Part shown: piece after piece, positions 60,864-62,092 of the stretch
Layout of the letters: every line of letters begins with the position of its first letter
Position numbering within the stretch: the first letter of the stretch is position 1
DNA from: Roseomonas aeriglobus
GTDB lineage: Bacteria; Pseudomonadota; Alphaproteobacteria; Sphingomonadales; Sphingomonadaceae
NCBI GenBank assembly: GCA_016937575.1
Contig: JAFHKN010000002.1
Location: 3,647,249 to 3,711,248 of the forward strand
DNA: 64,000 bases
Direction of reading: 5' to 3'
Made by a program: the position numbers and the translations under genes
The notes under the pieces: generated by a model
Told to the model about the DNA's origin: nothing
What the model saw: the letters and a program-made list of their open reading frames with translations, nothing else
The model's database searches: none

Positions 60864-61370
60864 ATGCTGGCAACCATAGGCTACGAGCGATCCACGCTTC
60901 CAGATTTTATCGCGACCTTGCGGTTGGCAGGTACAACCGTACTCGTCGACATTCGGGATCGTGCGCAGTCGCGCCGGCCAGGATTTTCCAAGACTAGCTT
61001 AAGCGAAGCCCTCTCGGAAGCAGGCATCTTGTATGTGCATCTTCGCCAGCTAGGTGATCCGGCAGAAGGACGGGCTGCCGCCCGCAGTGGCCAGAGGCAG
61101 TTGTTTCAGGAAATTTTTGGCGAGGTCATGAAGACGGACGCGCAGCCGATGCGCTAGACAAAATTGAACAGTTGACACAGTCCAAGTAGCGTATGTCTGA
61201 TGTGTTTTGAGCGAGACCACCACGATTGTCATCGAAAGATCGTAGCGGAAGCTCTCGAAAATCGCCTTGGGATCAAAGCTAGGCACCTCGGCGTCAGTCT
61301 CGGAGCGGCTAATGGCGGCAGCAAACGACGAATGCTTCATTCTGATCAAGGCGCAGCCTCATCGCTCTAG
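60864..61370 (+). pseudogene. DUF488 family protein, frameshifted
   Basis: From ATG 60864 (MLATIGYERSTLPDFIATLR, VLVDIRDRAQSRRPGFSKTS) the DUF488 start is typical, but the frame ends early at 61158. The remainder (DALDKIEQLTQSK, then VCLMCFERDHHDCHRKIVAE) is in two other frames up to 61370. The C-terminal CxxCFExDHxxCHR motif of DUF488 is complete. One missing G near 61145 and one extra T near 61190 repair the gene to about 170 residues. It probably binds metal; its reaction is unknown. It overlaps the start of the next gene. Confidence 0.75.
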
Positions 61371-62092
61371 CAAATATTTTGAGACTGTTTGTTGCGCCGG
61401 CGTGGGCCGGGATAGAAAATGGCGCAGACAGTATCCGGTGCCATTCCGAATTTTAGCTGAGGGGCAGAAATTTAAGCGATGGGATTGGATACAATATCAA
61501 TTTACAAAATCCAAAGAAGATATCCGCCAAGAAAGTCAAAAGGTTATTCCCGAATCGCTCAAAGTTTCAGGTTCAGTGAAAAATACCGAGCGTGCAAGTT
61601 TTCTTCAGCCATTGATACGTGCATCGTTCGCAGATGCAGATGCCCATCGAGAGTCATTGACTCTGATCCGGCCCAGAAGCCTATTACTTGAAGCTCACCC
61701 AAAATCCTCATCCGAAATTGCAGATGAGGCAGTCAAACATGGAGAGTTGGCTAATCAGCTTTCCATGTTTGATGCGACAGCAAAGCCGCTTACTCCCTGC
61801 CCAATGCGCTTTGTTGCGAAGTGGCGCGATGAGGACGGAAAAGACCGTAAGCATGACTGCGACGATTGGGAAACCTCTGCCGCATTCATGCGGTTTGAGC
61901 GGGCCTATGGCCGGCAAGCAGCCATAGCCGCCCTCAAACGGAAGTACGAGGACGAATACATGGCTGCTGGCCTTGTTTTTAGGTTTTAGCACCCACAAAA
62001 GAAGAAACGCCGAGTTTGGCACGCAGAATCAATGGCTGCTTGTAGGCATGATCCGTCTCGATGAAACGACGCAAACCTCAATGATCTTTTAA
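61312..62092 (+). pseudogene. Uncharacterised partner of the DUF488 gene (YPVPFR protein), one frameshift near its end
   Basis: From ATG 61312 the protein begins ANDECFILIKAQPHRSSKYF, ETVCCAGVGRDRKWRRQYPV and continues PFRILAEGQKFKRWDWIQYQ. The second half has MRFVAKWRDEDGKDRKHDCD, DWETSAAFMRFERAYGRQAA. The frame stops at 61989, but the next frame continues STHKRRNAEFGTQNQWLLVG with MIRLDE to a stop at 62092; deleting one T in TTTT near 61985 joins them to about 260 residues. I know no function. Similar proteins next to DUF488 genes are, as far as I recall, found in accessory regions. Its codon use looks AT-richer than the neighbours. Confidence 0.65.

Follow-up and report, generated by a model that had tools for sequence, protein, structure and literature searches.

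What are the two small, overlapping genes that lie between a yefM/yoeB toxin–antitoxin module and thiC in the genome of Roseomonas aeriglobus, and do they form a defence system? The window analysed here is a stretch of 64,000 nucleotides (GenBank assembly GCA_016937575.1, contig JAFHKN010000002.1, positions 3,647,249 to 3,711,248 of the forward strand; contig C2 hereafter). Near its end it carries, on the plus strand, a gene for a DUF488 protein (M19A, positions 60864 to 61370; PF04343; DUF488-N3a, PF22751) and a gene for a partner with a predicted OB fold (M19B, positions 61312 to 62092; 259 aa in relatives). The original prediction took them for an uncharacterised, undescribed system with a possible role in defence. 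The pair is, near certainly, the candidate system PDC-M19 (subunits A and B) of PADLOC, where PDC stands for phage defence candidate (PMC11514479).

This identification rests on both genes. The DUF488 piece read directly from the window matches the PADLOC profile of PDC-M19A (PDLC04505) at 1e-17, and the M19B of this genome matches that of PDC-M19B (PDLC04508) at 1.0e-35, as do its relatives P0020 (2.1e-33) and P0118 (5.7e-38). Against PF04343 (cut-off 22.2 bits) the window piece scores 60.5 bits and its intact copy 108.3 bits, and the intact copy also exceeds the cut-off of DUF488-N3a, the "active" model, with 38.4 versus 27 bits. For the partner, no match over the cut-off was found in Pfam or NCBIfam; a TraI_2_C match of the window partner (E 0.008) lay below the cut-off and did not recur in the intact relatives P0020 and P0118. 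Because PADLOC-DB already names the pair PDC-M19A/B, our finding is the rediscovery of a catalogued candidate defence pair, and the claim of an undescribed system falls. The claim that it has no assigned function stands: no tested function of the pair was found, and our literature search found no paper naming PDC-M19.

As read in the window, the frame of M19A is broken by indels, and that of M19B is open from 61312 to 61989, with a tail that runs on in another frame to 62092. These frameshifts are assembly noise and non-biological, because the ends of the contig overlap and the same locus is open at the other end. Window positions 52567–64000 correspond to C2:8000–19434 of the same contig with 99.8% identity (1 substitution and 19 single-base gaps), and in that start copy, near C2:16335, the DUF488 gene, its partner and thiC (616 aa) are all open. 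The simplest reading of contig C2 is a circle left unclosed, whose ends overlap and of which the window end is poorly polished. A noisier copy of the region is carried by contig C6 (27.8 kb), with 4 mismatches and 158 gap openings in 20 kb. We read the three apparent copies of the pair as one locus; three genomic copies are rejected, the two on C2 being the same locus and that on C6 an apparent noisy duplicate. A decaying pair or pseudogene is likewise rejected, since the second copy is open and the adjoining thiC is broken in the window in the same way yet open there. The features described from the broken copy were correct in coordinates and motifs: the gene overlap, put at about 60 bases, counts 59 on the sequence (61312–61370, plus strand, different frames), and the pair is indeed AT-rich, with a GC content of 0.512 versus 0.663 for the window; the single one of 1256 equal-sized windows that is so AT-rich is the pair itself. 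A second AT-rich dip lies at 55001–56000 (GC 0.523).

The proposed coupling of the two genes proved to be that of a tight two-gene module. Scanning genomes yielded 177 relatives, from which 80 loci were kept; in 76 of them a DUF488 gene lies directly upstream of the partner on the same strand, so that the notion of a partner living mainly without DUF488 is rejected, and an overlap of the two genes is estimated in 69 of these 76 (with an approximate M19B start). Among the four loci without DUF488, L028 and L035 are situated at a contig edge, while L069 and L070 have transposase-like open reading frames (ORFs; named by sequence reading) about 1.5 kb upstream and directly upstream, respectively. 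Ten more divergent copies from the genus and family had DUF488 adjacent in eight cases, while one copy reaches a contig end and L141 shows none in the stretch. Of 32 plasmid and phage hits, ten were examined and nine had an adjacent DUF488 gene, the tenth, Sulfolobus pSOG2, having none; the nine pairs were arranged tail to tail (seven), A then B (one, Sulfitobacter) or B then A (one, Calothrix). Because adjacency survives such rearrangements across Proteobacteria, Actinomycetota, Cyanobacteriota and a temperate Gordonia phage, it argues for a shared function of A and B. The A and B distances correlate over 73 loci (r 0.69, reached in 0 of 2000 permutations), which shows that the genes travel together and says nothing on the binding of their products. 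A search for natural A–B fusions, which scored the 7,996 candidates with the most shared words and listed 120 of its 340 hits, showed none among those listed.

The DUF488 protein keeps the CLMCFERDHHDCHR motif (positions 61194 to 61235, plus strand) that the original prediction had pointed out: its C, E, C, H and R were invariant in 76 of the 76 relatives. The alignment used for structure comprised 24 proteins in addition to 76 of the 80 loci. In a fold search the M19A model resembled dual-specificity phosphatases and diphthine-synthase-type methylases with moderate scores. The motif forms a predicted anion or phosphate pocket, with the Cys at a strand end and the His-Arg at a helix start; set beside the Cys-x5-Arg catalytic loop of the rhodanese-phosphatase superfamily, Cys and Arg stand ten residues apart. 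The best explanation of the model is that M19A is a putative enzyme with a rhodanese/phosphatase-like Rossmannoid fold and a conserved Cys...Cys-His-Arg anion pocket. Sequence search found no solved-structure relative of DUF488, and in a listing of the literature mentioning DUF488 we found no tested function. CTP binding is reported for proteins that include an archaeal fusion of a ParB-CTPase fold with DUF488-HTH (PMC12704722), and DUF488 occurs on Methanoperedens plasmids (PMC9674854). The family was present in six of 14 control genomes, and this genome has a solitary second DUF488 gene at C2:1661204. Gene 42 of Gordonia phage Nymphadora (L099:4807-5256), carries the annotation "HipA toxin" and encodes a DUF488 protein (PF04343, 103.9 bits).

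For the partner, structure prediction gave a confident model (predicted local distance difference test, pLDDT, of 92) with an OB fold over about the first 100 residues, which in the fold search resembled RecO, telomere-end proteins, RPA and SSB. Both of the separate blocks noted in the partner are conserved in relatives, the first (ETVCCAGV...YPVPFR, positions 61381 to 61449, plus strand) within the N-terminal OB fold and the second (RFVAKWRDEDG...DWE, positions 61807 to 61872, plus strand) in the C-terminal half. The model suggests that M19B is a nucleic-acid-binding protein, probably with tandem OB folds; no credible sequence match was found in the solved-structure library. A possible distant relation to the DuOB family (PF22557, cut-off 27 bits) emerged from profile comparison, which with larger alignments gave a probability of 46.8 and a score of 36.3 (against 21.1 for the best of 40 shuffles and 17.0 when reversed) and with smaller alignments scores of 24.8 and 30.7 and probabilities of 4.1 and 19.8. 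Two distant M19B proteins scored 18.6 and 18.7 bits against the DuOB model itself, below its cut-off, and P0020 and P0118 did not match. PF22557 genes were found in four of 398 phylum genomes (three over the cut-off), and all four adjoin DUF488, two of them (L105, L106) beside two DUF488 genes; in this genome PF22557 had no match, but the control genomes gave none either. Pfam holds a DUF488-N3i model beside the active DUF488-N3a, and we read "N3i" as inactive.

These features lead us to propose, with a probability of roughly one half, that PDC-M19 is a nucleic-acid-end-processing module in which M19B binds single-stranded nucleic acid or ends while M19A acts on the terminus, and which is usually directed at foreign DNA. 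M19B would most likely recognise single-stranded DNA (ssDNA) or DNA ends arising from phage replication, conjugation or plasmid entry and position M19A there; M19A would then act on a phosphate or sugar group at the terminus, by adding, removing or altering it, and the altered end could no longer be extended, ligated or circularised. The analysis itself shows what the pair is, how closely its genes are linked, its predicted folds, its patchy distribution and the hotspot; we infer the nucleic-acid binding, the specificity for DNA ends, the chemistry and invading DNA as the target. Through the pair, the widespread DUF488 gains an almost constant companion whose predicted fold is of a nucleic-acid-binding type, and this yields a testable two-component hypothesis.

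The distribution of the pair is patchy. M19B was found in five of 101 genus, seven of 397 family and ten of 398 phylum-sample genomes, this genome being included each time, and in two of the 14 control genomes (Synechococcus and Methanosarcina). The M19B of this genome is 77% identical to P0020, and other copies from the genus and family are 30–36% identical to P0020. The closest database relatives are at most 86% identical and lie mostly on short contigs, those with names coming from Sphingosinithalassobacter (P0020) and Sphingobium (P0053). The pair is horizontally acquired.

The site of the pair in this genome speaks to its company. On the left lie a YefM-type antitoxin gene, represented by its C-terminal part (PF02604, positions 60387 to 60578, plus strand, 32.5 bits), and a YoeB-type toxin gene (PF06769, 60526 to 60789, plus strand, 101 bits), so that the described neighbour is real by profile match; on the right lies thiC (62089 to 63939, minus strand, frames broken in the window), convergent with M19B. 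Among 61 genus genomes, 58 had thiC, and 30 loci were fetched including that of this genome, leaving 29 for comparison. In ten of these 29 the distance from the yoeB end to the thiC 3' end is at most 1.4 kb, and none has the pair between. In L127 and L132 the gap is only 70 and 97 bp, an empty site. Of the remaining eight gaps, six contain AT-rich genes of a different sort and those of L131 and L135 a gene whose GC is normal, with A and B absent from all; two of the ten genomes (G006, G040) carry a divergent M19B elsewhere. Because yoeB adjoins thiC in relatives without the pair there, the toxin–antitoxin module belongs to the site, and the suggested co-transmission of the pair with it is not borne out: yefM/yoeB is the resident flank and left border of the slot, not part of the pair or of the cargo, and thiC is the right border.

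The yoeB–thiC gap is a variable cargo hotspot with a defence flavour. The lowest 300-bp GC fell below 0.55 on the thiC 3' side in 19 of 27 loci and on the 5' side in none of 27 (Wilcoxon p 6.6e-6; two of the 29 loci were left out for too short a flank). From 15 of the 29 slots 18 long ORFs were picked by eye, seven of which match PADLOC at 1e-10 or better and 11 of which do not. The matches comprise an AAA ATPase (70 models, unspecific), PDC-M04A twice (homologues), PDC-M34A, PD-Lambda-3_B/HEPN, PDC-S14 and HEC-09; AIPR (L125), DUF4062 (L136) and DUF3800 (L111) were recognised by Pfam and not by PADLOC. Seven of 18 compares with at most four of 106 ORFs far from M19 pairs (Fisher p 1e-4), which is indicative only, the two sets having been drawn differently. 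Further cargo in L110–L138, in different species, includes DUF5343 and DUF4357, the slot being often bordered by yefM/yoeB. Two of the 80 M19 loci (L021, L056) likewise have the pair and thiC converging, no more than about 300 bp apart. The slot is thus a small and cheap place to look for more one- or two-gene defence candidates.

The neighbourhoods of the pair elsewhere weigh against a defence role. They vary by locus, with seven families in at least four loci among 1186 ORFs, and many neighbours are ordinary metabolic genes; the conserved housekeeping context that the original prediction had set against its own proposal is thus half present, since metabolic neighbours are frequent and yet differ between loci. 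Around the 80 pairs, 108 of 290 near and 106 of 245 far ORFs were drawn at random, all called by length only, so that some in both sets are spurious. The families listed were 25 of 49 from PADLOC near the pair, and from Pfam 25 of 83 near and 25 of 79 far, so that these lists show neither absences nor how many distinct proteins match. The listed PADLOC matches in the 108 near ORFs consisted mostly of methyltransferases and mad2, each in two ORFs at most, and defence enrichment next to the pair is at most weak. Defence is a reasonable guess from the match to PDC-M19 and from the slot with defence-like cargo in sibling genomes. In five loci a ParB-like family lies upstream of the pair, and six loci have a resolvase-like family nearby (L077, L060 and others; named by sequence reading).

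Mobile genes are the other side of these neighbourhoods, and they favour a rival reading, in which the pair serves mobile elements instead of hosts by processing or protecting ends (in replication, transfer or counter-defence) and is sometimes stranded on chromosomes. Integrase (three) and resolvase (two) were among the commonest domains in the 108 near ORFs, whereas in the 106 far ORFs resolvase occurred once and integrase was not among the 25 of 79 families listed. Moreover, M19B matches 25 plasmid records, 12 of them typed as conjugative, and seven Gordonia phage records, and the Nymphadora pair sits between repressor and integrase. On the other hand, many of the copies fetched stand among ordinary genes with no conserved element around them, and what is exchanged at the thiC slot is one defence-like cargo gene or a pair of them and not an entire element; we hold this alternative to be unlikely. 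A copy of the pair on a Pseudomonas plasmid (L148:4437-5735) adjoins a HEPN/Toprim-associated gene.

An accessory function in DNA repair or stress, unrelated to conflict, would agree with the likeness of the M19B fold to RecO, RPA and SSB and with the ordinary neighbours at many loci, but presence in only a few percent of the sampled genomes, strong divergence within the genus, carriage on phages and plasmids and the variable cargo slot make it quite improbable. Least probable is a toxin–antitoxin-like pair, a toxic DUF488 enzyme restrained by its OB partner, for although two small overlapping genes with a patchy distribution on plasmids and phages would suit it, DUF488 also occurs without the partner, as in the second gene of this genome, and gene order is not conserved, the putative enzyme coming first in Alphaproteobacteria where antitoxin-first is the usual order of such modules.

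The end-processing module can be carried further, to a picture that we regard as doubtful in its full extent: M19 would be an immune system of two proteins, distributed among bacteria, archaea, phages and plasmids, in which an OB protein of the RPA/telomere-end type captures ssDNA ends of foreign DNA, on its entry or during its replication, and passes them to a DUF488 enzyme that chemically blocks the terminus, with the DuOB–DUF488 operons as multi-enzyme relatives and the thiC 3' end as a defence cargo slot of the genus. If true, M19 would be restriction by end-capping instead of cutting.

Set against known systems, the pair agrees with PDC-M19 in that its proteins match the respective subunit profiles (moderate matches) and adjacency is kept, PADLOC's exact rule being unseen, and no difference was found in this pair. 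A study of the rhodanese-phosphatase superfamily reportedly placed DUF488 there and proposed DNA-end processing in conflict systems; phosphatases and diphthine-synthase-type methylases came up in the M19A fold search independently of it. The pocket of RapZ uses H252 and R253 (PMC5737377), comparable to the His-Arg of DUF488. With RecO, RPA and telomere end-binding OB proteins M19B shares the predicted N-terminal OB fold, and it differs from them in lacking a sequence match to solved structures and in being paired with a DUF488 gene. The DuOB operons are alike in placing an OB-fold gene beside DUF488 and in a possible distant profile similarity of M19B and DuOB, but in the window a single DUF488 gene accompanies M19B with no other enzyme gene alongside, whereas two of the four DuOB operons (L107, L108) include a third gene, whose product bears an IGRGSxWGNP motif and which we take to be DUF4326. 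Two sequence families thus seem to share the combination of DUF488 with an OB-type partner, in support of a division of labour between binder and enzyme.
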